Shown in pieces: positions 11,093-28,143 of a stretch of 48,973 nucleotides of DNA. The position numbers and the translations under genes are program-made. How positions within the stretch are numbered: the first letter of the stretch is position 1; every line of letters begins with the position of its first letter. The notes beneath the pieces were generated by a model. It was given only the letters and a program-made list of their open reading frames with translations, searched no databases and was not told the origin of the DNA. The DNA comes from Bacteroides sp. (GTDB lineage: Bacteria > Bacteroidota > Bacteroidia > Bacteroidales > Muribaculaceae): the NCBI GenBank assembly GCA_014802435.1, contig JAAVCG010000040.1:1-48973 (forward strand). Direction: 5' to 3'.

Positions 11093-11127
11093 CGGCAGCC
11101 GATAAGTTTGATGCTAATCGGCTGCCG
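11093..11127 (-). terminator. Hairpin after nuoN, likely end of nuo-atp operon
   Basis: A perfect 11-bp stem (CGGCAGCCGAT, 11093-11103, with ATCGGCTGCCG, 11117-11127) and a 13-nt loop. It lies 64 bp beyond the nuoN stop. No strong T run follows on the minus strand, so it may end transcription weakly, protect the 3' end, or be an operator for the Crp-like gene starting at 11068. Confidence 0.6.
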
Positions 11128-11190: not shown

Positions 11191-12639
11191 TTATCTGCAA
11201 AGGAGCAGGATTTCATTATAGAAGCAGGAAACGAGGCCGAGGGCGATGATTCCGGCAACGGTAATCCACATTGCGATGCGCTCGGAGCAGGATGACTTGA
11301 AAGTCGGGATGACCGGCTCATCAGAGCTGAGGAACATGGCCTTAACCACGAGCAGATAGTAGAACAGAGAGATGATGGTGTTAATCAAGGCGATGAGCAC
11401 CAGGACATAGAGCGCTACGGATGTGGTTCCATTCAGTGCGCCGGCAAAGATGAAGAACTTTGAGAAGAATCCGGCGAAGGGAGGAATACCGGCCAGAGAG
11501 AACATTGCCAGCATCATGACGAAGCTGAGCTTGGGGTTGCTCTTGTAGAGGCCGCGATAGTCGGTCATATCGAGCTTGCCGGTAGCGTTTTCAATTGATT
11601 GGATAACGCCGAAAGCGGCAAGGTTAGAGAAGATGTAGACCAGGATATAGAACATCAGCGAGGCCATGCCCATAGCGTTATTGCCGACAATACCAAGCAT
11701 GATGTAACCGGCCTGAGAGATTGAGGAGAAGGCCAGGAAACGCTTCATGTTAGTCTGGCGCAGGGCAAAGAGGTTACCGACGGTGATGGTCAGGATAATC
11801 AGTGCATAGAGCATCCATTCCCATACCTGAGAATAGACAGCGCCGAAGACCTGAGTGAGAATCACGAGGAAGGCAAACGCGGCTGAGCCCTTGGAGATAA
11901 CGCTCAGATAAGAGGTAACGGAAGTAGGTGCGCCCTGATAAACGTCGGCAGTCCAGAGATGGAAGGGGACGAGCGAGAGCTTGAAACCAACGCCGGCAAT
12001 GACAAAGGCCAGAGCGACAATCAGGAGGGCTGAAACCTGCTGAGTGGCAACCGATGCGGCGATGTCGCCAAAGTAGAGCGAGCCGGAGAGCATGTAGATG
12101 TAGCTCAGGCCCATCATGAAGATGGCAGAGGAGAAGACGGCGGTCAGGATATACTTGATGGCCGCTTCATGGCTTTCATACTTGTTCTTTTCAAAGGCGA
12201 CGAGAGCGGCAAGGGGGAGCGAAGCAGCCTCCAGGCCGATGATGAAGAGGAGGAAGTGGCGGGCGGAAATCATCAGATACATGCCAAAGAGCGTCACCAG
12301 GATGAGTTCGAGGAATTCGCCGCGGCGCACTACTTGATTTTCAGAGTTATTCCAGGTAATGGACTGCACGAGGACAATCAGAACGCCAACGTTGAGAATA
12401 TTCTTGATGCAGGCAATTACGGGCGAGGTTTCATACATTCCGGCAAATGCGGTCTGCACTCCGGAGGGAGCGGCGCAGCAGAAGCCGCAAACCGTCAGCA
12501 GGCCGAAAAGAATGATTGAAATACCTTGGATGGAGTTGAGAGCCCGCTTTGACATGAAGGTGTCATAGAGGAAGACCAGCAGGAACACGACCAGGAGGCC
12601 GATTTCCTGTTTCATTACTAAAAACTGTGAGTAATCCAT
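11191..12639 (-). CDS. nuoN: NADH-quinone oxidoreductase subunit N
   Basis: A 482-aa antiporter-like membrane subunit of complex I, which helps convert quinone reduction into proton pumping. It has about 14 hydrophobic spans and the conserved family signatures: a glutamate in FIIGLEAASLPLAALVAFEK, the half-channel lysine helix HEAAIKYILTAVFSSAIFMM, GVGFKLSLVPFHLWTADVYQ (with PFHxWxxDVY), and KGSAAFAFLVI. The length is normal. It is the last gene of the locus, 26 bp after nuoM, and a hairpin follows at 11093. Confidence 0.96.
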   Translation of the reverse strand: MDYSQFLVMKQEIGLLVVFLLVFLYDTFMSKRALNSIQGISIILFGLLTVCGFCCAAPSGVQTAFAGMYETSPVIACIKNILNVGVLIVLVQSITWNNSENQVVRRGEFLELILVTLFGMYLMISARHFLLFIIGLEAASLPLAALVAFEKNKYESHEAAIKYILTAVFSSAIFMMGLSYIYMLSGSLYFGDIAASVATQQVSALLIVALAFVIAGVGFKLSLVPFHLWTADVYQGAPTSVTSYLSVISKGSAAFAFLVILTQVFGAVYSQVWEWMLYALIILTITVGNLFALRQTNMKRFLAFSSISQAGYIMLGIVGNNAMGMASLMFYILVYIFSNLAAFGVIQSIENATGKLDMTDYRGLYKSNPKLSFVMMLAMFSLAGIPPFAGFFSKFFIFAGALNGTTSVALYVLVLIALINTIISLFYYLLVVKAMFLSSDEPVIPTFKSSCSERIAMWITVAGIIALGLVSCFYNEILLLCR

Positions 12640-12664
12640 TGGTTGAAATTAGTTTTTACAGTAA

Positions 12665-14158
12665 TTACATTCCGAGCACCTTGAAAATCTCGGGCGAGAA
12701 TGTTGTGCGAATCAAGTTAGCAAAGAAATTGGGGAAGCAACCGATAGCGGCAACGCAGATAATGAGCGTTACGGTAGAGGTGCGTTCCCACCATGTTGCG
12801 TCAGTGAGCTCTTCATGGTGTTTATCATAAACGGGGCCAAGGAGGAGCTTGCCGACCACTCGGAGGATATAAACCGCCGTGATAACGATTGAGCAGCAGG
12901 CAATAATCGTGAAGACGCGATTGAGAGTATGAGTATTTTCAAACGAGCCGACGAAGATTGTCATTTCAGCAACGAAGCCTGAGAGACCGGGAAGGCCGAG
13001 AGAGGCGAAACCGGCAATCATATAGCAGACGGCGAGGAAGGGCATAATCTTCATCAGGCCTCCCATCTGGCGGATGTCGCGAGTATGTGTGCGGCCATAA
13101 ATCATACCGATGAGTGCGAAGAAGAGGGCGGTCATGAGGCCGTGAGAGAGCATCTGCATGATTGCGCCGGTCATAGCCGTAGTGTTCAGCATCAGGATTG
13201 CGAAGAGTACCAGACCGCAGTGGCTCACTGAGGAGTAAGCGTTGATATACTTAAGGTCAGTCTGCACGCAAGCGGAGAATGCACCGTAGACGACGGAGAT
13301 ACCCGTAAGAATCAGGAAAATCCAGGCGAGCTCGTTAGCGGCATAAGGCATCAGGAAGATGGCCACACGGAAGCAACCGTAGCCGCCGAGCTTCATCAGG
13401 ACGCCGGCATGGAGCATGGAGACGGCTGTAGGCGCACAGGCGTGACCGTCAGGGCTCCAGGTATGGAAGGGGAACATAGCGCCGAGGACACCGAAACCGA
13501 CGAAGGCCATCGGGAAGAGGAACATCTGCCATGAATGATCAATCGTGTCAGCCTGAGCAATCTCAAGGATATTCCATGAGTTGAGGCCGGCGTTATAATA
13601 GATGCCGATGATTGAGAGCATCAGGAAAGCGGAGCCGCCCATGAGCATCAGGGTGAGCTTCATGGCTGAATACTCCTTGCGTCCGGTGCCCCAGATACCG
13701 ATGAGGAGATACATCGGGATAAGAGCGACTTCATAGAACATAAACATCGTGAAGAGGTCAATGCTGATGAAGAATCCGAAGACGCCGATAGAGAGCAGAA
13801 TCAGCCAGAGGAAGAATTCCTTGGGGAGGGGATTGATTTTCCAGGAGGCGAAAGAGCCGGTCAGCAGAATGATGCTTGAGAGCAGAAGCATTGCGATAGA
13901 GATGCCGTCGACTCCGACACTCAGCTTAATATTCAGCGCGGAAAACCAAGTCCAGTCGCCGCGATAGAGCATGGCGGCATTATCGCCGGCAGCGCGCAGA
14001 CCGAGATAGTCAACGAGGAGCCAGACGCTCAGGCCCAGGAGGCAGAGCGAGCCCGCAACGGCTACAGTGCGAATCTGAGCCATGTTGCGACAGAGGTAAA
14101 TACCCAGGAGCATAATCACCGGGATTACCACGAAATATATCAGAGGATTTGAAAACAT
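12665..14158 (-). CDS. nuoM: NADH-quinone oxidoreductase subunit M
   Basis: A 497-aa antiporter-like proton-pumping subunit of complex I, with about 14 membrane spans. Signatures include DLFTMFMFYEVALIPMYLLI (conserved Glu in TM5), PFHTWSPDGHACAPTAVSML (the PFHxWLPDAHxxAPT pattern; here Ser-Pro-Asp-Gly, a local variation), MLHAGVLMKLGGYG with the conserved lysine, and SHGLMTALFFALIGMIYGRT. It lies 39 bp after nuoL and 25 bp before nuoN in the same operon. Confidence 0.96.
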   Translation of the reverse strand: MFSNPLIYFVVIPVIMLLGIYLCRNMAQIRTVAVAGSLCLLGLSVWLLVDYLGLRAAGDNAAMLYRGDWTWFSALNIKLSVGVDGISIAMLLLSSIILLTGSFASWKINPLPKEFFLWLILLSIGVFGFFISIDLFTMFMFYEVALIPMYLLIGIWGTGRKEYSAMKLTLMLMGGSAFLMLSIIGIYYNAGLNSWNILEIAQADTIDHSWQMFLFPMAFVGFGVLGAMFPFHTWSPDGHACAPTAVSMLHAGVLMKLGGYGCFRVAIFLMPYAANELAWIFLILTGISVVYGAFSACVQTDLKYINAYSSVSHCGLVLFAILMLNTTAMTGAIMQMLSHGLMTALFFALIGMIYGRTHTRDIRQMGGLMKIMPFLAVCYMIAGFASLGLPGLSGFVAEMTIFVGSFENTHTLNRVFTIIACCSIVITAVYILRVVGKLLLGPVYDKHHEELTDATWWERTSTVTLIICVAAIGCFPNFFANLIRTTFSPEIFKVLGM

Positions 14159-14197
14159 AATTTGGATAATGTTTGATTGGTTCGGTGATTAGGGGGA

Positions 14198-16168
14198 TTA
14201 GAGCATAATGACTGCTGCGGTTACGCCTCCAAGGAGCAGAGCGCCGAAGAGGTAGACATAAACATAGCTCTGCACATTGCCGCTCTGGAGCGGGCGAATC
14301 GTGATGCTCAGACGCTGGGCACACCATGCGAGACCATCCATGGTGCCGTCAATGATGTGGCGGTCAAACCAGGCGATAGGCTTACAGATGAGGTTGAAAA
14401 TAATCTTATGAGTGATGAAGAGATAGATTTCATCCCAGTAGAAGCGATGGTGAGCAGCGGTCCAGAGGGCGCCGGTAGCCTTGGCAACCTTGTCAGGCAT
14501 CGGGTTTTTCTTGCGATACATAACAGTTGCGAGGGCAATTGCGAGCACTGCGATAATGATTGAGGGCATAGCGACGCCAATCCAGTCAATATGGATATGG
14601 TAAGGTTCGCCATTCCAGGTCACCAGTTCGCCGAAGGGGATAAATCCGGCAACACAGCTAACCAGGGCCAGGAAAATCAGGGGCAGCGACATGGGCCAGG
14701 GAGCGTCATGAGGCTTGTGATGGCCATAATCGGGTTCGTCCCACCAGAATATCAGATAATAGAGGCGGAACATATAGAATGCCGTCAGACCGGCAACCAT
14801 GCTCATCCAAGCGCCCCAGATGAAGCTGTTTTCATAACAAGCGGAGAGGATTTCGTCCTTAGAAAAGAATCCGCTGAAGGGAGGGATACCGGCAATGGCA
14901 AGACAGCCAATCAGGAAGGTGATATGAGTGATGGGCATGTACTTGCGCAGGCCGCCCATTGCGGTATAATCATTAGAGTGAACGGCATGAATCAGGGCAC
15001 CGGCACCGAGGAAGAGCAGAGCCTTGAACATTGCGTGAGTGAACAGATGGAACATGGAGGCCATATAGCCGAGGCCTTCATGGATTTCAGGACGGGCCAC
15101 ACCGAGCGACACCATCATGAAAGCGATCTGAGAGATGGTAGAGAAGGCGAGCACGCGCTTGATATCGATCTGAGTGCAGGCCACTACGGCGGCATAGAAA
15201 GCCGTGATAGCGCCAACGACGGTGATGAACGTCAGTGCGGCTTCTTCCATCAGATAGAGCGGGAAGAGGCGGGCGACGAGATACACGCCGGCGACAACCA
15301 TCGTCGCAGCATGGATAAGGGCCGAAACGGGAGTCGGGCCTTCCATAGCGTCAGGGAGCCAGATATGCAGCGGAAGCATTGCTGATTTACCCATACCGCC
15401 CATGAAGATGAGCACGAGGGCCCAGGTCAGCAGGGAGCAGCCCATGAAAGTTGCGCCGCCGAAGCTTGCCAAAACGTTGAGCGGAGTAACGAGGTCATTA
15501 ACTGAAGAGCCGTTAGCGAGAACGGAGCCGGTCAGTTCGGTGAAGTTGAAAGTGCCGGTATAGAAGCTGAGAATCAGGATACCGATGAGGAAACCGAGGT
15601 CAGCAAAGCGAGTAACGATAAACGCCTTTTTAGAAGCGGAGACGGCTGAGGGGCGCTGATAATAGAATCCGATGAGCAGATAAGAAGAAGCGCCGACGAG
15701 CTCCCAGAAGATATACATCTGGAAGATGTTGGTAGCAACGACCAGGCCGAGCATTGAGAAGCTGAAGAGCTGCAGGAATGCATAGTAACGTTGGAAGCCT
15801 TTTTCGCCCTCCATGTAACCGAGAGAATAGAGGTGGACACAGAAGCTGATCGTAGTGATAACGACGAGCATCAGGGCCGAAATCGGGTCAAGGAGGAAAC
15901 CGATACGGATGGTCAAATCCTTATAGAAATTGAGCCAGTCCTGGTTGAAGACTACGTATTGCAGGCGAGTACCGTCGAGAATAAACTCTGAGGCGCCGCT
16001 AAAGAAGTAAGTGAAGGCCGTGATGTAGGCGAGCACCATGACTGTGCCAATGCTGAGGATTCCATACCATCCGGCAGCTTTATGGCTCATCTTGGGTCCG
16101 AGCAGACCGAGCACTAAGAAGCCCAGCAGCGGCAGACACAGAATAAGAATGGGAATTACAGGTTCCAT
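14198..16168 (-). CDS. nuoL: NADH-quinone oxidoreductase subunit L
   Basis: A 656-aa subunit, the distal proton pump of complex I, with the long C-terminal lateral helix expected of NuoL. Motifs: FMGGMGKSAMLPLHIWLPDA then MEGPTPVSALIHAATMVVAG, SNDYTAMGGLRKYMP, and FSGFFSKDEILSACYE. The C-terminal region from about 500 carries an amphipathic stretch and a last span (YVYVYLFGALLLGGVTAAVI). The length is typical (610-680). It starts 16 bp after the nuoK stop. Confidence 0.97.
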   Translation of the reverse strand: MEPVIPILILCLPLLGFLVLGLLGPKMSHKAAGWYGILSIGTVMVLAYITAFTYFFSGASEFILDGTRLQYVVFNQDWLNFYKDLTIRIGFLLDPISALMLVVITTISFCVHLYSLGYMEGEKGFQRYYAFLQLFSFSMLGLVVATNIFQMYIFWELVGASSYLLIGFYYQRPSAVSASKKAFIVTRFADLGFLIGILILSFYTGTFNFTELTGSVLANGSSVNDLVTPLNVLASFGGATFMGCSLLTWALVLIFMGGMGKSAMLPLHIWLPDAMEGPTPVSALIHAATMVVAGVYLVARLFPLYLMEEAALTFITVVGAITAFYAAVVACTQIDIKRVLAFSTISQIAFMMVSLGVARPEIHEGLGYMASMFHLFTHAMFKALLFLGAGALIHAVHSNDYTAMGGLRKYMPITHITFLIGCLAIAGIPPFSGFFSKDEILSACYENSFIWGAWMSMVAGLTAFYMFRLYYLIFWWDEPDYGHHKPHDAPWPMSLPLIFLALVSCVAGFIPFGELVTWNGEPYHIHIDWIGVAMPSIIIAVLAIALATVMYRKKNPMPDKVAKATGALWTAAHHRFYWDEIYLFITHKIIFNLICKPIAWFDRHIIDGTMDGLAWCAQRLSITIRPLQSGNVQSYVYVYLFGALLLGGVTAAVIML

Positions 16169-16184
16169 ATTTCAGTTGGGGGGA

Positions 16185-16496
16185 TTATCCTTTAAGTTGA
16201 CTTGCTTCGTCGGTCTCCACTTTTTTGGTGACACGATAGAGATTAATAATGATTGCGATTGCGAGGGCGGTTTCGGCGGCCGCAATAGCGATAGCGAAGA
16301 GCGTGAAAATCATGCCTTCCTGTGATTCCGGGAAGAGGTAACGATTGATAACGGTGAAGTTGATATCAACCGCATTGAGCATGAGTTCCAGCGAAATGAG
16401 CATTGCAATCATGTTTTTGCGCGTGAGGAATCCGTAGACTCCGCAGCAGAACATGATGAGGCTCGGCACCAGATAATATAACAGTTTGATTTCCAT
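16185..16496 (-). CDS. nuoK: NADH-quinone oxidoreductase subunit K
   Basis: A 103-aa three-span membrane subunit homologous to MrpC. The two conserved membrane glutamates are present (ISLELMLNAVDINF and AIAAAETALAIAIIINLYR), with the family's GVYGFLTRKNMIAMLISLEL start. It lies between nuoJ (19 bp) and nuoL (16 bp). Confidence 0.96.
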   Translation of the reverse strand: MEIKLLYYLVPSLIMFCCGVYGFLTRKNMIAMLISLELMLNAVDINFTVINRYLFPESQEGMIFTLFAIAIAAAETALAIAIIINLYRVTKKVETDEASQLKG

Positions 16497-16515
16497 TGCT
16501 GAAAGATAATGAATA

Positions 16516-17016
16516 TTAACGTTTACGGGCCACTGCTACGGCGCCGATGATACATGCGAGCAGAAGCACTGAGATAGCCTCAAAGGGAAGGAGGTATCCG
16601 CCGCGAGAAGTTGAGAGCATAGCCTCGCCGAGGTTTTGCATCGTATACTCTGCCATTTCCGGTTTGGGGGCAAACAGAGCGCTGCAGCGGCTCAGCAGAG
16701 CCCAGCCGGTAACGCCGGCAGTGCAGACGGCGGCGAGAATACCCCACCATACGCGGCGATTGGTCAATTTCTCGCTATTGCTGCCCGGGGAAGTGGTCAA
16801 CAGGATTGAGAACACGAACAGGACGACGATACCGCCGGCATAAACTGCAATCTGAACGCCTCCGAGGAATTCATAATCCATCATGAAATAGATTATGGCG
16901 GCGGCGAAGAGAGTAAAGAGCAGATAAGTTGCCGAGCGCAGGATTTTGCGCGTGGTAACGGTCAGGATTGAGAAGATGATGATGGCCAGAGCCACAATCG
17001 TATACATTATTTCCAT
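16516..17016 (-). CDS. nuoJ: NADH-quinone oxidoreductase subunit J
   Basis: A 166-aa five-span membrane subunit of complex I. It contains the family region NLGEAMLS near 130 and the TM3 segment (YFMMDYEFLGGVQIAVYAGG) with the pi-bulge Tyr/Gly pattern and the glutamine/valine core that couples to the quinone site. It begins seven bases after the nuoI stop codon, indicating translational coupling. Confidence 0.95.
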   Translation of the reverse strand: MEIMYTIVALAIIIFSILTVTTRKILRSATYLLFTLFAAAIIYFMMDYEFLGGVQIAVYAGGIVVLFVFSILLTTSPGSNSEKLTNRRVWWGILAAVCTAGVTGWALLSRCSALFAPKPEMAEYTMQNLGEAMLSTSRGGYLLPFEAISVLLLACIIGAVAVARKR

Positions 17017-17023
17017 AACTTAC

Positions 17024-17545
17024 TTAAGAATTAGCGGCAGTAGAATCAGGATTTTCAGGAGCCTTGGGAGCGGGTGCAGGTGCGGGGTCCGGGGCTTCAG
17101 GGAGATAGTTGAGTTTCTTGACGAGCATTTCGCGGGTAAACACGGCCTGTTCAAAGTCATTAGAGAACTCAATGGCTCCGGTGGGGCAATTAGTCACACA
17201 CAGCTGACAGAAGGTGCAGGAACCGAGGTCATAGATCCAGTTTACGAGCTTTTTCTTCTTCTTGCCGTCAGGCATATCGGCCATACGGCTTTCAATGGTA
17301 ATCGTACCATTAGGACATGAGCGCTGGCAGATACCGCAGCTGATACACTTATGGCGACCTTCGGCGTCATACTTAAGAGTAAGGATTGCGCGGAAGCGAT
17401 CAGGGACATGAACCGTTGAACGGTTTTCCGGATAACGCTCCGTAACCTTCTTGGTCACGAACTCCTTGCCGGTCACCTGCATACCCTTGATCAGGGAGCT
17501 GAGTCCGGCGCCGAAGTCCTTGAAATAATCTTTTACACTACCCAT
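17024..17545 (-). CDS. nuoI: NADH-quinone oxidoreductase subunit I (two 4Fe-4S)
   Basis: A 173-aa peripheral-arm subunit that carries two 4Fe-4S clusters (N6a and N6b) leading electrons to N2 in NuoB. The Cys motifs are C67-x2-C70-x2-C73-x3-C77P and C110-x2-C113-x2-C116-x3-C120P. The end (from about 150) is a Pro/Ala-rich tail. It is the first nuo gene after the inserted ATP synthase block: the atpG stop is at 17608, leaving a 62-bp AT-rich gap without any TAnnTTTG box, so it presumably relies on the upstream promoter. Confidence 0.96.
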   Translation of the reverse strand: MGSVKDYFKDFGAGLSSLIKGMQVTGKEFVTKKVTERYPENRSTVHVPDRFRAILTLKYDAEGRHKCISCGICQRSCPNGTITIESRMADMPDGKKKKKLVNWIYDLGSCTFCQLCVTNCPTGAIEFSNDFEQAVFTREMLVKKLNYLPEAPDPAPAPAPKAPENPDSTAANS

Positions 17546-17607
17546 AGTCGGTTTGTGAATTGGAGTTTTATGCTGATTGTTTTATTATTCTCGTTAAAAA
17601 AATTCTC

Positions 17608-18480
17608 TTATTTAACCTGTCCGCCAAGAATGTCGAGCAGTTCGTTGGTAATGCTCTGCTGTCGGAGCTTGTTATATTCCAGTTGGAGCTGCTCAAGGAG
17701 CTTCGAGGCATTATCATTGGCGCTCTGCATGGCCATCACGCGGGCGGCCTGTTCGGAGGCGCGGTTTTCGCTGAATCCTTCCTGAACCCGGCTCAGGAGC
17801 ATCAGCGGAAGGGCCTGGGCGAAAATCTCATCAGCGCTCGGCTCGAAGAGATAAGGCTGACTGCCCTGAGCGGATGCATCTCCCTCAACGGCCGATACCG
17901 GAAGCAGTTGCTCACACTTTATTCGCTGGCGGGCCGGGCTGATAAAGCCCATATAGATAAAGTCGACTCTATCTGTTTCGCCGGCAAGGAAGGAGCGCTG
18001 CAAATCCTGAGTGAAACGCTTGATTTCATCGGCAGTGCTCTTGGAGTTAACCGGCGCATCCGTGATGACTTCAACGCGGTCCATTGACAGTTTGCCGACG
18101 GCCTTAACCATCTTTGACCCGACGGGAATCAACCGGATGGAAGCTGAGGGCAGGGATTCACGGATGCTGTTGACATGAGCCAGGAGTTCCTTGAAGATGT
18201 TCAGGTTATAAGCTCCACAAAGGCCATCGTCACTTCCGGCAACAACGACCGTCAAATGGCTGACCTCGCGCTCCTCAGTCAGGGGGGAGACACACTGAGC
18301 GTCGGCCTCCAGCAGATGGGCAATGATAGCCTCCAGCTGATTGCGGAACGGGAGCAGGCGTTTGATGTCGCGCACGGCCTTGTTCATCTTGGCCGACGAA
18401 ATCATCTTCATGGCGCCGGTAATCTTCTCTGAGGAGCTTACCGAGCCGATTCTGCCTTTAAGATCGCGTAAGGTTGCCAT
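17608..18480 (-). CDS. atpG: ATP synthase F1 gamma subunit
   Basis: A 290-aa central stalk subunit that rotates inside the alpha3beta3 head. The N-terminal coiled-coil helix (MATLRDLKGRIGSVSSSEKI then TGAMKMISSAKMNKA) and the C-terminal helix (AMQSANDNASKLLEQLQLEY, NKLRQQSITNELLDILGG) are the family signatures. The middle is a Rossmann-like part (VVVAGSDDGLCGAYNLNIFK). It starts 10 bp after atpA and is the last atp gene before nuoI. Confidence 0.97.
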   Translation of the reverse strand: MATLRDLKGRIGSVSSSEKITGAMKMISSAKMNKAVRDIKRLLPFRNQLEAIIAHLLEADAQCVSPLTEEREVSHLTVVVAGSDDGLCGAYNLNIFKELLAHVNSIRESLPSASIRLIPVGSKMVKAVGKLSMDRVEVITDAPVNSKSTADEIKRFTQDLQRSFLAGETDRVDFIYMGFISPARQRIKCEQLLPVSAVEGDASAQGSQPYLFEPSADEIFAQALPLMLLSRVQEGFSENRASEQAARVMAMQSANDNASKLLEQLQLEYNKLRQQSITNELLDILGGQVK

Positions 18481-18489
18481 TGGTTAGAG

Positions 18490-20067
18490 TTATTTTTGGT
18501 ACTGAGCAGCCGTTTCCTGTGCTACTTTAGTCAAAATTTCAGTAATTTCATCTGTGAGCTGACCGGCGCGGATTGCATCAAGCACCTGTGACTGATAAGA
18601 CGAACGAAGCACCATCAGGAAGCGGTCCTGGAATTCATTGATCTTATCCATCGGAACGTTTTCAAGCAGACCCTTGGTGCCGCAGTAAATAACGGCAACC
18701 TGCTCCTCAACGGGCCAGGGCTTATATTGCGGCTGAATCAGGAGACGCTCGTTTTTGCGTCCCTTGTCAATCACGCGGGCGGTCACGGCGTCCATGTCGC
18801 CGCCAAACTTGGTGAATGATTCAAGTTCGCGGAACTGTGCCTGGTCAATTTTCAGCGTACCGGCCACCTTCTTCATAGACTTGATTTGAGCGTTACCGCC
18901 GACACGGCTCACTGAGATGCCGACATTGATTGCCGGGCGGATACCGCGGTTAAAGAGGGCCGTTTCAAGGAAGATCTGGCCGTCAGTGATGGAGATAACG
19001 TTAGTGGGGATATACGCGGAGACGTCGCCGGCCTGAGTTTCGATGATGGGGAGGGCCGTCAGAGAGCCGCCACCCTTAACCATGGGCTTCAAGGCCTCGG
19101 GGAGGTCATTCATCTTCTCGGCAACTTCCTGAGCGTCGATAATGCGGGCTGCGCGTTCAAGCAGACGGCTATGGAGATAGAAAATATCGCCGGGATAAGC
19201 CTCACGACCGGAAGGACGCTTAAGAATCAGAGAGATTTCACGATAAGCGACGGCCTGCTTTGACAGGTCATCATAAACGATGAGGGCGTCGCGGCCCGTA
19301 TCGCGGAAATATTCGCCGATGGCCACTCCGGCAAACGGTGAATAGTAACGCATGGCGGCGGAATCAGAGGCCGAAGCGCTCACGATGACGGTATAGTCCA
19401 ATGCGCCATGTTTGCGCAGGGTTTCAACCGTAGCGGCGATGCTTGAGGCCTTCTGACCGATGGCTACGTAGATACAGTAAACGGGTTTGCCCTCTTCGTA
19501 GTTCTTACGCTGGTTGATAATAGTGTCAATGGCGATGGCGGTTTTGCCAATCTGGCGGTCGCCGATAATCAGCTCACGCTGTCCGCGGCCGATGGGCACC
19601 ATGGAGTCAACGGCCTTGATGCCGGTTTGGAGCGGAGTCTTTACGGGCTGACGATAGATAACGCCGGGGGCCTTACGTTCCAGGGGCAGATGAATCAGGT
19701 TTCCCTCGATGGGTCCGCGGCCATCAATAGGCTCGCCCAGGACGTTGATGACGCGCCCGAGCAAACCCTCGCCAACGGGGATTGAAGCGATTTCGCCGGT
19801 ACGGGTAACCTTCATTCCTTCGGTTACACGGTTAACGTTGTCAAGCAGAATCACGCCGACATTGCTTTCCTCAAGGTTGAGGGCGACGCCTTTGACGCCG
19901 TTTTCAAACTCAACGAGTTCGTTGGCGCAGACGTTGTCAAGGCCGTAAACATGGGCCACACCGTCGCCAACTTCAAGCACTGAGCCGGTTTCCTCAAAAG
20001 AGACCTTGCGGTTAACGCTTTCGAGCTGCTGTTTCAATATCTGGGAAATCTCGCTGGGGTTAGTCAT
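18490..20067 (-). CDS. atpA: ATP synthase F1 alpha subunit
   Basis: A 525-aa regulatory nucleotide-binding subunit of the F1 head. P-loop GDRQIGKT at residues 169-176, the family pattern [35 protein letters not shown], and the arginine-finger region [20 protein letters not shown]. The N-terminal beta barrel ([18 protein letters not shown]) is intact. Spacing to atpH is nine bases and to atpG nine bases, consistent with a single mRNA. Confidence 0.98.
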
Positions 20068-20076
20068 TGCAGAGAA

Positions 20077-20628
20077 TTAATGGCTTAAAAGTTTTATTCG
20101 AAGTTGTTTGAGTTCATTGGCAACGGAGGCATCAAGGAGCTCATTGTCAATGCTGACGGTAAAACCGCCGATAAGGTCAGGATTGACCGCCTCTGAGAAG
20201 TCGGCAGTTGAATCAGCCGGGAGCTGACGCTCAACTATTGACTTGATGCGGCCCATTTCTTCGGCCGACAGTGGAGCGGCAGAGGTTACATTGACCTTAA
20301 AAATATGATTTTGGGCACGATAGAGGGCAATGAATGCCAATGCCGACTGATAAAGGCTGTCAAGGCGTCGATTCTGACACAGGAGCTTGACATAACCGGA
20401 AAGCTCCTCAGCGGCTACTCCCTGAGCGCCTGCGGCAGCGAGGACGAGAGAGAGTTTCTCATCATTGCTGATGGCGGGATTGGACAGAGTGTGGCGCAAC
20501 TGAGGCTCGGCGGCAAAGGAGTCAGCGAGCCGAATCATAGCCTCATAAACAGCCGGTGCGGACTGATGTTCAGAAGCGAGCATCAGCAGGGCTTTGGCAT
20601 ATCGGCGAGGTATTAGTCCCTGGTCCAT
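20077..20628 (-). CDS. atpH: ATP synthase delta subunit
   Basis: A 183-aa peripheral-stalk subunit that joins the b dimer to the top of F1 (OSCP in mitochondria). It begins with MDQGLIPRRYAKALLMLASE, the RYAxAL signature, and ends with VNPDLIGGFTVSIDNELLDA then SVANELKQLRIKL, the conserved C-terminal block. Only two bases separate it from atpF. Confidence 0.96.
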   Translation of the reverse strand: MDQGLIPRRYAKALLMLASEHQSAPAVYEAMIRLADSFAAEPQLRHTLSNPAISNDEKLSLVLAAAGAQGVAAEELSGYVKLLCQNRRLDSLYQSALAFIALYRAQNHIFKVNVTSAAPLSAEEMGRIKSIVERQLPADSTADFSEAVNPDLIGGFTVSIDNELLDASVANELKQLRIKLLSH

Positions 20629-20630
20629 TA

Positions 20631-21128
20631 TCAGTTAGCGGTTTCTATTTGGTCAAGAATATTGTCGACGAGTTTTTGCTGTGCCTGAGGATTGGAGAGC
20701 TGACCGCGCACAACCTGAGTTGCAATCTCAAGGGCTGCGGCAGAGACTTCATCGCGAAACGACTGTTGAGCCTCCTTGCGGGCCTGCTCGATGGCAGACT
20801 TGGCGGCTTCCATCTCCTTTTTGGCCTCCTTAGCGGCCTCAGTGCGTGCCTGGTCAATAATCTGCGACTTCATCTTGTCAGCTTCACGGAGAATCTCGGC
20901 CTGACGCGTACGCGCCTCTGCTTCAAATTCCTCGGCCTGCTGCTTGGCTGAGTCCAGTTGAGCCTTGGCCTCGCGGGCATACAGCACCCCCTTGTCGATC
21001 AAATCGGCGCGACTGTCAACTCCTTTCATGATGGCCGGCCATGCAAACTTCCATAACAGCAGGAAGAGCACGGCAAAGGCCAGAAACATCCAGAAGATGA
21101 GGCCGAAATCCGGGGTGAACAGTTCCAT
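20631..21128 (-). CDS. atpF: ATP synthase F0 b subunit
   Basis: A 165-aa peripheral stalk subunit. One N-terminal membrane span (LIFWMFLAFAVLFLLLWKFA) is followed by a long charged coiled coil (residues about 35-160, rich in Ala, Glu, Lys, Gln) that forms the stator. It lies 30 bp after atpE and 2 bp before atpH. Confidence 0.96.
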   Translation of the reverse strand: MELFTPDFGLIFWMFLAFAVLFLLLWKFAWPAIMKGVDSRADLIDKGVLYAREAKAQLDSAKQQAEEFEAEARTRQAEILREADKMKSQIIDQARTEAAKEAKKEMEAAKSAIEQARKEAQQSFRDEVSAAALEIATQVVRGQLSNPQAQQKLVDNILDQIETAN

Positions 21129-21158
21129 TAGAGGTTACCGGGGGGATTGGATGTCAAA

Positions 21159-21413
<255 letters not shown>

Positions 21414-21436
21414 TTATGAGTTTATTATTTGATTTT

Positions 21437-22567
21437 TCAATTTGCTGAGGCGAGAGAGGCATCCGTGGCCGGATGTGATTCACTATGATGTTCTTCATGA
21501 CCCTTTTCACGCGCCATACCAATGAAAGTGGTGGAGAGCATCGTGAAGACAAAAGCCTGGATGAAGCTTACGAGGACGTCAAGAAGCAACATGAAGATGC
21601 TGAAGAAGACACTGACCACTGAAGTTGCGCCGGCAACGGCCGTTCCGGCAACATCACCCATGATAAAGATAATCAGCGTCAGCACGATTACTATCATATG
21701 TCCGCCCATCATATTGGCAAAGAGACGCACCGTAAGTGAGGCCGGCTTGGTCAAGGCTCCGAAGAGCTCGATGACCTGCATGATGGGGATAGGACACTTA
21801 AGAAACATCGGCACGTCGGGCCAGAAGATTTCTTTCCAGTAGTGTTTGCGGGCAAAGAGGTTAGTGCAGAAGAAGGTAATCAGTGAAAGAACCAGAGTCA
21901 CGGCAATGTTACCCGTAAGATTCGCTCCGCCGGGGAAGATTACCACCAGACCCATAAGGTTCATGATGAAGATAAACATGAAGACGGTCAGCAGATAAGG
22001 AGCGAACTTGCGGGAATCCTCGCCCAACGTAGGCTTGATGACTCCTTTATAGATAAACTCTATCAGTGACTCAATAGCTCCGACAAAACCGCGCGGAGCA
22101 AGATAGCCATGTTTTTTATGCCAACGGGCAACGGGCAAGCACACTGCCAAAGTAACGAGCACGGCAATCCAGAGGGCGCAGACATTCTTGGTAATCGAAA
22201 TGTCAAATGCCGGCTTAACCAGTTGGCCGTCAGGCATCAGCTGGCATACCTTGCCCTTATTATCGCCCTCGGCGGGAACCTGCCATGAATAATCTCCATC
22301 AACGTAGACGGCATGATTATTGACATGAGAGGAGCTGAAGCAATGGAAAGAACCATCCTGAGCCCAAACCATCACGGGCAGCGGAATCCTGTGATGATGG
22401 TCAAAGGGAACCTCCCATCCGTAGCCGTCGCCCAGATGTTCGAAAATAATTTCCTTGGGATTGAAACCACCCTCGCCTTCAGATGAGGCGGACGCAAGAG
22501 CCCGCGCCGGCAGCAGAAGCGCAACCAGCATTGAGGCAAGAGCAAGAATCAGTTTCAAGTTTTTCAT
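21437..22567 (-). CDS. atpB: ATP synthase F0 a subunit
   Basis: A 376-aa membrane subunit with the two proton half-channels. The ATG at 22567 is chosen; five codons upstream a TTG would also fit, but would overlap atpC. Residues 1-26 are a signal peptide (MKNLKLILALASMLVALLLP), followed by a long extra-membrane N-terminal region (about 27-125) that is typical of Bacteroidota and absent from E. coli. The channel helix has TVRLFANMMGGHMIV with the essential arginine, and PASLTVRLF. The C-terminus has a His/Glu-rich tail (EKGHEEHHSESHPATD). The gap to the atpC stop is two bases. Confidence 0.95.
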   Translation of the reverse strand: MKNLKLILALASMLVALLLPARALASASSEGEGGFNPKEIIFEHLGDGYGWEVPFDHHHRIPLPVMVWAQDGSFHCFSSSHVNNHAVYVDGDYSWQVPAEGDNKGKVCQLMPDGQLVKPAFDISITKNVCALWIAVLVTLAVCLPVARWHKKHGYLAPRGFVGAIESLIEFIYKGVIKPTLGEDSRKFAPYLLTVFMFIFIMNLMGLVVIFPGGANLTGNIAVTLVLSLITFFCTNLFARKHYWKEIFWPDVPMFLKCPIPIMQVIELFGALTKPASLTVRLFANMMGGHMIVIVLTLIIFIMGDVAGTAVAGATSVVSVFFSIFMLLLDVLVSFIQAFVFTMLSTTFIGMAREKGHEEHHSESHPATDASLASAN

Positions 22568-22569
22568 TT

Positions 22570-22806
22570 TTAATATATGCAAACGGAGATAACATCACGG
22601 TTAACATCAACAAGACCGCCCTCAGTGGCTACGGAGTGTTCCTCGCCCGAAGGAAGGCGATAAACAATCTGTCCGGCAACGAGCGACGCTATGAGCGACG
22701 CATGGTGAGGCAACACAGTGAAGCTGCCTGAGGCTCCGGGAAGAGTAACCATTGAGGTTTCGCCCTCAAAGAGGATATCGTCGGTTGAAATGATACGTAA
22801 TGTCAT
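22570..22806 (-). CDS. atpC: ATP synthase F1 epsilon subunit, short form
   Basis: A 78-aa protein corresponding only to the N-terminal beta-sandwich domain of epsilon (LPGASGSFTVLPHHASLIAS, then EEHSVATEGGLVDVNRDVIS). The usual C-terminal helical hairpin, which inhibits ATP hydrolysis in E. coli and Bacillus, is absent. The short form is known from Bacteroidota, so it is not a truncation, but epsilon-type autoinhibition cannot operate. It lies 23 bp after atpD and 2 bp before atpB. Confidence 0.94.
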   Translation of the reverse strand: MTLRIISTDDILFEGETSMVTLPGASGSFTVLPHHASLIASLVAGQIVYRLPSGEEHSVATEGGLVDVNRDVISVCIY

Positions 22807-22829
22807 TGCTCAGTCCGTTGATGGGTTAA

Positions 22830-24335
<1,506 letters not shown>

Positions 24336-24356
24336 TTAGGGATTGAATTCGTGTGA

Positions 24357-25439
24357 TTAAAAATAGAGACCGAAAACGACTACGAGAGTCATCAGGACGA
24401 GGTTTACGAGGCTGACAGGCATCAGATACTTCCATTCAAAAGAGAGAAGCTGGTCAATACGCAGACGGGGGAAGGTCCACTTAAACCAGATCATCACGAA
24501 AGTAATGACTACGGCCTTGCCGAGGAACCAGATTACAGAGGGGATATAATCCATAATATGGTTGAAGCCGTCCCATCCGGGGATGTGGAAGGGCATCCAG
24601 CCGCCGAAGAAGAGCAGCGAGGCAACTCCACCGACGATGAACAAGTTAAGATATTCAGCCAGATAGAAGAAGCCGAAGTGCATACCGGAATATTCAGTAT
24701 GGTAACCGGCGGTCAACTCACTTTCTGCCTCGGGGAGGTCAAACGGGCCACGGTTGGTTTCAGCAGTGCCGGCAATCACGTAGACGAGGAAAGCGATGAT
24801 GGCGGGAATATGGCCGGAGAAAATGAACCAGCAATGTTCCTGAGCCTGCACGATTCCCTGCACGCTCATGGTGCCGGCGAGGACAACCATGGCGATGACC
24901 GACAGAGAGATGGAGATTTCATACGATACCATCTGAGCGCCGGAACGGAGTGCGCCGATAAGAGTAAACTTATTGTTAGACGACCAACCGGCAAGAAGAA
25001 TACCGAGCACACCGATGGAGCTAACGGCCAGAAGGAAGAAGATGCCGATATTGAAATCAATAGCCTGCAGACCGTTACCCCAGGGAAGGACGGCAAAGGC
25101 CAGCATGGAAGCGACGATTACCAGGAACGGAGCAAGGGCAAAGAGGAATTTATCAACATGATTCAGGGAGATAAGCTCCTTGATCAGCATCTTAAACATA
25201 TCAGCAAACGGCTGAAGAACACCGAAGGGACCTACGCGGTTCGGGCCGAGACGACACTGGAAAGCCGCACAAACTTTACGTTCAAACCAGATATAGAACA
25301 GGGCGAGCACGGCATAAACCAGCAGGAGAACTAATCCAAGGAGCACGCACTCCAGGGTTACGGTCAGCCAATCAGGACAGCCGAGAACTACTCGAAACAG
25401 ATTGTCAATCCAGTGAGTGATGAATGAAAGATCTTGCAT
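24357..25439 (-). CDS. nuoH: NADH-quinone oxidoreductase subunit H
   Basis: A 360-aa membrane subunit at the junction of the two arms of complex I, forming part of the quinone cavity. Signatures: YIWFERKVCAAFQCRLGPNR then VGPFGVLQPFADMFKMLIKE, GWSSNNKFTLIGALRSGAQM, YEISISLSVIAM, TNRGPFDLPEAESELTAGYH and FKWTFPRLRIDQLL. It is followed by atpD rather than by nuoI, which is the odd point of this locus. Confidence 0.97.
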   Translation of the reverse strand: MQDLSFITHWIDNLFRVVLGCPDWLTVTLECVLLGLVLLLVYAVLALFYIWFERKVCAAFQCRLGPNRVGPFGVLQPFADMFKMLIKELISLNHVDKFLFALAPFLVIVASMLAFAVLPWGNGLQAIDFNIGIFFLLAVSSIGVLGILLAGWSSNNKFTLIGALRSGAQMVSYEISISLSVIAMVVLAGTMSVQGIVQAQEHCWFIFSGHIPAIIAFLVYVIAGTAETNRGPFDLPEAESELTAGYHTEYSGMHFGFFYLAEYLNLFIVGGVASLLFFGGWMPFHIPGWDGFNHIMDYIPSVIWFLGKAVVITFVMIWFKWTFPRLRIDQLLSFEWKYLMPVSLVNLVLMTLVVVFGLYF

Positions 25440-25475
25440 AATAATCTATTGTGAAATGAATGGAGGAGAAGCGGA

Positions 25476-27098
25476 TTAACGGTCAATATCAGGGACAATA
25501 TAGTCAAGAGTGCCGCCGATGGTAATCAAGTCGGCAATCTTCTGACCACGGCAGAGATGGTCAACGACACCGGCCAGACAGAAGCAGGGTGAGTTGAACT
25601 TCATGCGCCAGGGAGAGGTGGTGCCGGTGCTCTCAATGTAGCAACCAAACGCGCCCTTACCCGTTTCAACTTCCTGGAACCAGTGGCCTTCCGGCAGTTT
25701 GATTACCTTGGGAACCTTGGCGCAGATTTCGCCTTCGGGGATATTGTCAATCAGCTGGGCAATGATGCGGCAGCTCTGTTCCATTTCGGTGATGCGGGCC
25801 TTGAAGCGAGCCATGGAGTCGCCCTCAGTGCGAGTAACAACGTCGAATTCCAGCTCGGGATAAATGCCGTAAGGCTGAGCGCGGCGAACGTCATAATTCC
25901 ATCCGGCAGAACGGCCGGCCGGGCCGGTAACGTTATAATCAACAGCGGCTTCCGGAGTGAGCACGCCGACGCCTTCCATACGGTTTTTAGCGATGATGTT
26001 GCCGGTGAACACCTTGTTGTATTCCTTGATGGCCTCGGGCATGATTTCAAGGAGCTTCTTGACGTCAGAAACGAAATCATCAGCCAAATCCTGGCGTACA
26101 CCGCCAATGGTGTTATAGTTAAAGGTCATGCGCGCGCCGGTGGTCTTCTCGAAGATGTCAAGAATAGTTTCGCGCTCGCGCAGGGCATAGAAGAGCATCG
26201 TCGTGGCGCCAAGGTCCATACAGAAAGTACCCATAGCCAGGAGGTGAGAGTTCAGACGCATCAGCTCGTCCATGATGCAGCGGATAACCTGAGCGCGGCG
26301 GGGCACTTCAACCTGCATCGCCTTCTCGATACACATGCAGAGACAGTGGCTGTTCATCAGTGCGCCAAGGTAGTCAAGACGGTCAGTGAAGTGGATTGTC
26401 TGCGGATAGGTCAGTCCTTCACAAAGTTTTTCAATGCCGCGGTGGATATATCCCAGATAGAGGTCAATCTTCTTGATTTCCTCGCCGTCAACGGCAGTGC
26501 GGAGGCGGAGCACACCGTGAGTTGCGGGGTGCTGCGGGCCAATGTTGACAACGAAATCCTCCGGCTGGAAAATCACGTGTTCCTCAGTATGAATCTTGCC
26601 GTCAGGACCTTCAACGTATTCAACCGTAGTGTCCTGCGTTTCCTCATGGTCAAGGCGCACGGGGTTGAGCGCCGGATTCGTGTCATAATCCTTGCGGAAG
26701 GGATAGCCAACCCAGTCATTGCGCAGGAAAAGATGACGCATGTCCGGATTGCCGATAAACTTAATTCCATAGAAATCAAAAACTTCGCGTTCATAGATTC
26801 CGGCTACGGCAAAAAGGTCCGTAACGGAATGGAGGAACGGATTTTCGCGTCCGTCGGACTCAACCTTGACGCGAACCATTTCATAAGTCTTTGAGTTAAC
26901 CAGATAGCAGACAATACCGAGCTGTTCGCCCCAGTCCATACCGATGAGGGCGCGCAGATTGTCAAAGCCGAAGTCATTTTTGAGAGCGGCGGCGACGTCA
27001 TGCCATTTGGCGTCGGGAACATTAAGCTCAAGCGTTTCTCCCTGAGCGAATTCTACTTCGGGAAATTGCTTGGCTATGGTTTCCTGAATGTTTGCCAT
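25476..27098 (-). CDS. nuoCD: Fused NADH-quinone oxidoreductase subunit C/D
   Basis: A 540-aa fusion. Residues about 1-155 are NuoC (YEREVFDFYGIKFIGNPDMR, LFLRNDWVGYPFRKDY). Residues about 160-540 are NuoD, the quinone-binding 49-kDa subunit (NIGPQHPATHGVLRLRTAVD with the conserved His pair, GYIHRGIEKLCEGLTYPQ, SHCLCMCIEKAMQVEVPRRA, and the C-terminal VVDHLCRGQKIADLITIGGT-LDYIVPDIDR end). The fusion is normal in Bacteroidota. It lies 36 bp after nuoB. Confidence 0.97.
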   Translation of the reverse strand: MANIQETIAKQFPEVEFAQGETLELNVPDAKWHDVAAALKNDFGFDNLRALIGMDWGEQLGIVCYLVNSKTYEMVRVKVESDGRENPFLHSVTDLFAVAGIYEREVFDFYGIKFIGNPDMRHLFLRNDWVGYPFRKDYDTNPALNPVRLDHEETQDTTVEYVEGPDGKIHTEEHVIFQPEDFVVNIGPQHPATHGVLRLRTAVDGEEIKKIDLYLGYIHRGIEKLCEGLTYPQTIHFTDRLDYLGALMNSHCLCMCIEKAMQVEVPRRAQVIRCIMDELMRLNSHLLAMGTFCMDLGATTMLFYALRERETILDIFEKTTGARMTFNYNTIGGVRQDLADDFVSDVKKLLEIMPEAIKEYNKVFTGNIIAKNRMEGVGVLTPEAAVDYNVTGPAGRSAGWNYDVRRAQPYGIYPELEFDVVTRTEGDSMARFKARITEMEQSCRIIAQLIDNIPEGEICAKVPKVIKLPEGHWFQEVETGKGAFGCYIESTGTTSPWRMKFNSPCFCLAGVVDHLCRGQKIADLITIGGTLDYIVPDIDR

Positions 27099-27134
27099 AT
27101 ACTTTAATATATAATGGAGTGTGATGAATCTTAA

Positions 27135-27743
27135 TTAATTGGTGGTCTCTGAGATGGGATGATTCTTGAGGAATTCCTTTTGGCTTTCCTTGCGGTTGAC
27201 GCCACCAAAGAATTTTTCAACCTTGACCTTGCGGCTGAGCTGCATGATTGCATAAATCATGGCTTCCGGACGGGGAGGACAGCCGGGACAGTAGACGTCG
27301 ACGGGAATAATCTCCCCTACCCCCTTGAGGACATGGTAAGAATTCTTGAACGGACCGCCGGAAATAGCGCAACCGCCGCAGGCAATCACATATTTAGGCT
27401 CGGCCAGCTGGTCATATAGACGGCGAACCACGGGAGCCATGCGGTGCACGATAGTGCCGGCAACCATCATAAAGTCAGCCTGACGGGGCGACGAACGGGC
27501 AACTTCCCATCCAAAGCGGGCCATATCATAACGGGCGGCGCCGAGGGCGATAAATTCAATGCCGCAACATGAGGTTGCAAACGTCAGAGGCCACAGAGAG
27601 TTGGAGCGGCCCCAGTTAATGAGCTTATCAAGCGAACCTACGATTACGTTGGTGCCGGAGGCCTTGAGTTCATTAACGAGTGATTCGATATATTCGTTGT
27701 CCTTCCAGTCCTCGTAGGGCATGGACTTGGTTGTTACTTCCAT
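27135..27743 (-). CDS. nuoB: NADH-quinone oxidoreductase subunit B (cluster N2)
   Basis: A 202-aa subunit that holds cluster N2, the last iron-sulfur centre before quinone. The ligands are Cys59-Cys60 (TSCCGIEFIALGA), Cys125 (ACGGCAISGGPF) and Cys155 (YCPGCPPRPEA). It overlaps the nuoA end by ten bases, so the two are translationally coupled. Confidence 0.97.
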   Translation of the reverse strand: MEVTTKSMPYEDWKDNEYIESLVNELKASGTNVIVGSLDKLINWGRSNSLWPLTFATSCCGIEFIALGAARYDMARFGWEVARSSPRQADFMMVAGTIVHRMAPVVRRLYDQLAEPKYVIACGGCAISGGPFKNSYHVLKGVGEIIPVDVYCPGCPPRPEAMIYAIMQLSRKVKVEKFFGGVNRKESQKEFLKNHPISETTN

Positions 27744-28102
27744 TGCAAAGCTCCTTTCCGCCAGGCATATACGAGACCCAGCACGAGAATGATGAAAAAT
27801 ACGGCGATGCAGGTCAAACCTTCAACGCCGAGCGCCTTGGCGCGTACTGCCCAAGGAAATAAGAAGACACACTCCACATCAAACATCAGAAACAAGATGG
27901 CATAAAGATAATAGCCAATCTTAAACTGAGCCATGGAGACGCCTCGGGTAGGAATACCACATTCATATGCCTCACCCTTCTGCTCATTATAAGAGCGCGG
28001 AGACATCAAACCGGCCACCAACAAGGCAAGCGCCACCAGGGCGATACCCGTAAGTGCCGCTGTAACAGCCAGAACGCCGTTAGAAATGGATAACGTGATC
28101 AT
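27734..28102 (-). CDS. nuoA: NADH-quinone oxidoreductase subunit A
   Basis: A 122-aa three-span membrane subunit and the first gene of the 17-kb nuo-atp locus. The loop with the conserved YECGIPTRGVSMAQFKIGYY (YECG plus RF(x)Y-type) and DVECVFLFPWAV is present. A promoter box lies 33 bases upstream. Confidence 0.95.
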   Translation of the reverse strand: MITLSISNGVLAVTAALTGIALVALALLVAGLMSPRSYNEQKGEAYECGIPTRGVSMAQFKIGYYLYAILFLMFDVECVFLFPWAVRAKALGVEGLTCIAVFFIILVLGLVYAWRKGALQWK

Positions 28103-28135: not shown

Positions 28136-28143
28136 CAAATTTA
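28136..28143 (-). promoter_or_regulatory. -7 element of nuo-atp operon promoter
   Basis: TAAATTTG on the minus strand, a full TAnnTTTG match, giving a leader of about 27 nt before the nuoA ATG at 28102. No TTTG is visible 19-20 bp upstream. It is the only convincing promoter box seen in the gaps of the 17-kb gene run. Confidence 0.65.

Follow-up and report, generated by a model that had tools for sequence, protein, structure and literature searches.

A complete ATP synthase gene cluster nested within the complex I locus of Muribaculaceae and their relatives

Contig JAAVCG010000040.1 of assembly GCA_014802435.1 (labelled G000 in our genome set), whose whole 48,973-nucleotide (nt) stretch is referred to here as the window, carries on its minus strand a row of 18 open reading frames (ORFs) in which the genes of an F-type ATP synthase (atp) lie within those of complex I (nuo). 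Comparison with related genomes places this nesting in a single clade of Muribaculaceae, Barnesiella, Coprobacter and their kin. The best explanation is that the atp block was inserted once in the ancestor of this clade, that a promoter of its own is undetectable, and that the row is most probably read as one unit, mainly from the promoter of nuoA.

Gene content of the nuo-atp row

Followed from position 28102 down to 11191, the gene order is nuoA-B-CD-H, atpD-C-B-E-F-H-A-G and nuoI-J-K-L-M-N. An initial annotation of the window had put the atp block between nuoH and nuoI on one strand, with gaps of 24 and 62 base pairs (bp) at its two ends, and the ORF coordinates confirm this. It had also described the row as holding all genes from nuoA to nuoN, which needs correction, as nuoC and nuoD form a single fused gene and nuoE, nuoF and nuoG are absent from the ORFs of the row. 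Gene identities were taken from NCBIfam models. NuoA, NuoI, NuoJ and AtpC score below the curated cut-offs even for their best matches, which in each case point to one family. All features listed here lie on the minus strand, and every gene is called from its ORF and its NCBIfam match:

28136..28143, minus strand: TAAATTTG, 5' of nuoA, matching the Bacteroidetes -7 box consensus TAnnTTTG (motif scan; position enriched in relatives)
27734..28102, minus strand: nuoA
27135..27743, minus strand: nuoB
25476..27098, minus strand: nuoCD fusion
24357..25439, minus strand: nuoH
24333..24356, minus strand: entry join nuoH-atpD, 24 bp, without box and without hairpin
22830..24332, minus strand: atpD (beta)
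22570..22806, minus strand: atpC (epsilon, short, 78 amino acids)
21437..22582, minus strand: atpB (a); the start listed is TTG, with an ATG five codons further
21159..21398, minus strand: atpE (c)
20631..21128, minus strand: atpF (b)
20077..20628, minus strand: atpH (delta)
18490..20067, minus strand: atpA (alpha), sole copy in the assembly
17608..18480, minus strand: atpG (gamma)
17546..17607, minus strand: exit join atpG-nuoI, 62 bp, unstructured in the window
17024..17545, minus strand: nuoI
16516..17016, minus strand: nuoJ
16185..16496, minus strand: nuoK
14198..16168, minus strand: nuoL
12665..14158, minus strand: nuoM
11191..12639, minus strand: nuoN
11093..11127, minus strand: stem of 11 bp with a 13-nt loop, 3' of nuoN, where the unit probably ends; T run not strong at the threshold used

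The row encodes the complete set of an 11-subunit-type complex I, i.e., NuoA, B, CD, H, I, J, K, L, M and N. The NADH-input module NuoEFG that would make up a 14-subunit enzyme is missing as far as it was searched for: none of its three genes lies in the row, and searching the whole assembly gave no match to the NuoF family PF01512, the search for NuoE and NuoG having covered the row only. All eight bacterial subunits of the F-type ATP synthase are encoded, and atpA is single-copy in this 2.48-Mb, 98.6% complete assembly, in which the two other matches are weak, partial and to related ATPases (one of them being atpD). The 78-residue epsilon subunit (22570-22806) matches only the first part of its profiles and is missing the C-terminal inhibitory part that this subunit has elsewhere. 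Within the window, the row has the features expected of a single operon: one strand, short gaps and two joins, both short and unstructured, that hold neither a promoter box nor a terminator.

Distribution and origin of the nested arrangement

In the sample of family f1, which is taken as Muribaculaceae and among whose genomes the named Muribaculaceae records fall in the tree, NuoH was found in 58 of 59 genomes, and atpD comes directly after nuoH in 56 of these 58 loci, the other two stopping at a contig edge. Across the order, a sample of 119 Bacteroidales genomes with family numbers up to 108 yielded some NuoH match in 66 and a strong one (E up to 1.8e-122) in 42. Reading 34 of the latter gave eight nested loci (two from f1 and one each from f99, f18, f80, f54, f24 and f61) and 26 that are not nested. 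Among named genomes, represented by the best 80 of 589 confirmed loci, 38 loci are nested (Barnesiella, Coprobacter secundus, Candidatus (Ca.) Caccoplasma, Ca. Gallibacteroides, Ca. Amulumruptor, Ca. Limisoma, Paramuribaculum and Muribaculaceae records) and 42 are not (Bacteroides, Phocaeicola, Butyricimonas, Odoribacter, Alistipes and Tannerella records); some record names are loose, with two 'Bacteroides sp. Mgla' records grouping among Muribaculaceae. There are 73 loci with the nuoH-atpD join, of which 62 also show the atpG-nuoI join, the remainder ending earlier. In the Bacteroides loci read, a set to which B. thetaiotaomicron itself does not belong, nuo and atp lie apart.

The phylogeny of complex I points to a single event. 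In a tree built from NuoA, B, CD, H, I, J, K and L with 140 tips (73 nested, 66 not nested and one with atp after nuoN), one clade with a support of 1.0 holds all 73 nested loci and no other tip. It is made up of Muribaculaceae, Barnesiella, Coprobacter and kin. Bacteroides, Phocaeicola, Alistipes, Odoribacter and Butyricimonas are among the 67 tips outside it, and the 35 nested loci of a smaller tree, based on six Nuo proteins, likewise form one clade. A 120-marker genome tree (Ormerod et al. 2016, PMC4936053) likewise makes Barnesiella and Coprobacter the closest relatives of Muribaculaceae, so the nesting owes its spread to descent and not to transfer. Across Muribaculaceae and other Bacteroidales, the range over which the initial annotation had proposed to follow synteny, the nesting is confined to one clade in the samples taken, and a single postulated insertion in the ancestor of this clade explains all gene orders seen.

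The opposite history, in which the nesting was ancestral to Bacteroidales and lost many times, could draw on two cases outside the nested clade where the operons are near each other. In L128/L224 (Bacteroidales SIG115, G176 contig 40), an unrelated lineage far from this clade, a complete atp operon begins 313 bp downstream of nuoN, both on one strand, and in family f96 (G153 contig 8, ~22-56 kb; L215 and L229) the nuo and atp operons are ~11 kb apart and face each other. Yet nuoI is the next searched gene after nuoH in all 68 non-nested loci read (67 of them in the tree), and among 20 nuoH loci from outside Bacteroidales it comes next in 16, with none of the searched genes nearby in four and atp genes in none. 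In the samples taken, the single nested clade and the placement of nuoI elsewhere speak against ancestral nesting, which we reject as having a very low probability.

An artefact of assembly, which the initial annotation had named as a way in which its reading could fail, might be suspected where many relatives are metagenome assemblies. It is excluded because the same two joins recur in dozens of assemblies, including the isolate records Coprobacter secundus 177, Barnesiella sp. An22 and Muribaculaceae Isolate-110, and its probability is practically nil.

Promoter and terminator signals along the row

TAnnTTTG is the consensus of the Bacteroidetes -7 promoter box. It is enriched in the window (46 found vs 20.8 expected), and the coding strand of the 17-kb row (11191-28102) contains none, the one on the opposite strand being at 18491. 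The closest box on the coding strand is the one listed above at 28136-28143, 33 bp before the ATG of nuoA, and the motif scan bears out the initial observation that neither join holds a box.

The same pattern emerges from the relatives when boxes are counted up to 200 nt before the start codon, with start codons set by a simple rule and shuffles preserving base composition only. A box precedes nuoA in 40/67 nested loci (shuffled 7.7). It also lies 5' of atpD in 10/14 non-nested relatives (shuffled 2.4; absent in L215, L217, L218 and L225), unlike nested atpD, where the count is 4/73 and hence below chance (shuffled 8.2). Nested nuoI has a box in 4/62 cases (shuffled 2.6), and atpA, which served as an internal control, in 1/63 (shuffled 2.9).

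The joins themselves are compact, the nuoH-atpD gap having a median of 46 bp and a maximum of 91 (n=73) and the atpG-nuoI gap a median of 70.5 bp and a maximum of 177 (n=62). For hairpins and terminators, one shuffle per sequence was used, and hairpins of -9 kcal/mol or stronger were counted as strong. The nuoH-atpD join has no strong hairpin (0/73, shuffled 0; three weaker ones) and no terminator-like stem (0/73, shuffled 0). Terminator-like stems follow nuoN in 27/31 nested (shuffled 6) and 14/31 non-nested loci (shuffled 2), and they follow atpG in 8/11 non-nested loci (shuffled 1).

One transcription unit or several

We propose that a complete F-type ATP synthase operon was placed once between nuoH and nuoI in the ancestor of Muribaculaceae, Barnesiella, Coprobacter and relatives. 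It has been retained there with no detectable promoter of its own, and it may have brought along its terminator but not its promoter, with later wear or reshaping of the terminator. The nuoA promoter would then most likely be the main source of transcription for the whole row, placing an 11-subunit-type complex I without its NADH-input module and the ATP synthase in one putative transcription unit that ends after nuoN. Co-transcription of nuo and atp is, on the strength of these comparative signals, quite probable; one promoter likely serves both machines, and a coupled expression of pump and consumer may reasonably be inferred.

Alternatively, atp could be nested by position only, with a weak or non-consensus promoter of its own and another one for nuoI-N, which would give two or three units. 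Cells usually need more ATP synthase than complex I, and a number of observations count against a single unit. Strong hairpins occur at the atpG-nuoI join in 23/62 loci (shuffled 5) and terminator-like stems in 12/62 (shuffled 2), and part of the transcripts may stop or get cut there in such relatives; the contrast with the nuoH-atpD join arises partly because the gaps of the latter are shorter. Further relatives from genus g23 (L250, L253, L255, L257 and L261) have long gaps of 183-341 bp at atpG-nuoI. Within the gaps alone, box counts are slightly over the shuffle means at both joins (nuoH-atpD 3/73, shuffled 0.9; atpG-nuoI 4/62, shuffled 1.6-1.9, up to 6), one atpG-nuoI join combines a box with a TTG at promoter spacing, and TAGATTTG is found shortly 5' of nuoI in L047 and L050. 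Weak internal starts in single lineages are possible. In addition, the box is strict, and 27/67 nested nuoA and 4/14 non-nested atpD upstream regions are without it; therefore, its absence in one genome says little. Finally, the window's own stem after nuoN has no strong T tail.

Set against separate units are the depletion of the box over the 200 nt before nested atpD, a position where it is common outside the clade, and the nuoH-atpD gaps of at most 91 bp in all 73 loci, and we consider transcription in two or three units unlikely. The single transcript suggested by the initial annotation is upheld in one respect and qualified in another: comparative signals support a reading of atp from the nuo promoter, while many relatives have hairpins or terminator-like stems at atpG-nuoI and one genus has a gap of up to 341 bp at this join. 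If the row is indeed one unit read mainly from the nuoA promoter, the hairpin in many relatives would probably lower or process the nuoI-N message, the corresponding join of the window being open.

A candidate pseudoknot at the atpG-nuoI join of relatives

A survey of 92 atpG-nuoI gaps, 77 of them distinct, revealed a recurrent structural element. The 6-mer ATACCG is followed 20-60 nt on by its complement CGGTAT in 17 distinct gaps (shuffled 0.01, at most 1), and the commonest other, non-overlapping 6-mer pair occurs twice. In L065, the two 6-mers form a plain hairpin; in the other 16, ATACCG sits in the loop of a hairpin with 5-11 pairs, a topology that makes the element a candidate H-type pseudoknot. 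The hairpin stem varies by lineage with its pairing kept, e.g., GGAAGT/ACTTCC, AAAGGTGAG/TTCACCTTT and AAAAGGAGAG/CTCTCCTTTT. L034 departs from the others in both halves of the downstream pairing, ATACCGAT being matched with ATCGGTAT. The candidate was recorded at the following position:

atpG-nuoI gap: candidate pseudoknot in L034, L037, L039, L047, L050, L051, L052, L053, L056, L239, L250, L253, L255, L257, L259 and L261

Since the alignment shifts the first stem between rows, a swap test was used instead of pair counts. True partners form a mean of 7.9 pairs vs 4.7 for permuted ones (12 distinct cases), a value reached by 0/5000 permutations; when each of 7 genera contributes a single case, 1/5000 permutations reaches the true value under one choice of cases and 0/5000 under another, the rows being related and these permutation counts thus not strict probabilities.

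A scan for the whole architecture in 319 loci (3.97 Mb) returned 18 distinct cases, vs 0-4 for 20 control 6-mers of the same letters. Fifteen of these lie at atpG-nuoI, two are in loci chosen earlier for the 6-mers, and the remaining one follows nuoN in L051; this last case may point to an element of 3' ends, as opposed to one tailored to nuoI. The candidate is absent from 11 atpG ends and 52 nuoN ends of non-nested loci, from 73 nuoH-atpD gaps and from the atpG-nuoI join of the window, and it gave no Rfam match at gathering score in the seven loci searched. The two 6-mers alone do not discriminate in a genome-wide scan of 13 genomes, because a reversed control is as frequent or more so in most of them (less in G025 and G021). 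Pseudoknot-free folding yields either pairing in different sequences, and a switch between the two is therefore possible.

Retention and significance

All 136 family genomes that are at least 95% complete have a NuoH match along with a second match to a joined NuoH+AtpG query, the second match being identified as AtpG for the 14 matches listed. Such retention fits the idea that complex I may not be cheaply lost or switched off once the ATP synthase depends on its promoter, since NuoH is found in 136/136 near-complete family genomes vs a strong NuoH match in 42/119 genomes over the order.

One family genome, G039 (94% complete), the exception in the sample of 59, is without NuoH and, at 1e-60, without AtpD, and a joint loss of both machines is possible. 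A look for an empty site covered the first 20 kb of 38 of its ~110 contigs, and the surroundings of the locus are not conserved in gene order. H5, a genome described by Ormerod et al. (PMC4936053), is likewise reported to lack both machines. Among 27 genomes searched for AtpD, six (G110, G083, G160, G181, G191 and G192, including two Alistipes records) had no match at 1e-100 and may use another ATPase type. As to other membrane complexes, the Rnf/Nqr membrane subunit PF02508 has no match in the window's assembly and is present in three other family genomes tested; within genus g1, to which the window belongs, it is missing in 8 of 11 genomes, the window's own included, and in 4 of 6 when the count is limited to genomes with a completeness of 90% or more.

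What stands out is that two large operons were, on this account, joined a single time and then maintained across a gut clade of several families. Its open, hairpin-bearing and pseudoknot-bearing joins would constitute natural variants for studying how cells set protein amounts from one transcript.

Comparison with known systems

The family S24-7 or Ca. Homeothermaceae is now called Muribaculaceae. A nested nuo-atp locus was described for it by Ormerod et al. (2016, Microbiome 4:36, PMC4936053), meaning that the nesting itself is already known for Muribaculaceae, the arrangement having been in print since 2016. To the extent that this text allows comparison, the window is alike in having F-type ATP synthase genes within the complex I locus and in having a complex I without NuoEFG, NuoF being absent genome-wide and NuoE and NuoG being judged from the row only. 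Relative to the same text, the present analysis adds where the joins lie, that Barnesiella and Coprobacter are nested as well, that the nesting has a single origin in the sampled tree, and the promoter and hairpin signals. In the literature search results listed, as far as their contents were accessible, no earlier report of Barnesiella/Coprobacter nesting, a single origin, join signals or the pseudoknot candidate was found, and the history of the nesting within a single clade is the well-supported new part.

For Bacteroides and Prevotella, a beta-epsilon-a-c-b-delta-alpha-gamma transcription unit has been described (PMC5709465), and the window has the same order of the eight atp genes, with a location inside complex I not being described in the available part of that source. 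Among 14 non-nested atp loci read, the order D-C-B-E-F-H-A-G is complete in nine and cut at the end of the stretch in one, whereas no atpF was detected in two (one of them from Bacteroides) and only D-C are found together in another two. Records of Bacteroides, Phocaeicola, Odoribacter, Butyricimonas and Tannerella share the nuo set of the window, but in these nuoI follows nuoH and the atp genes are located elsewhere.

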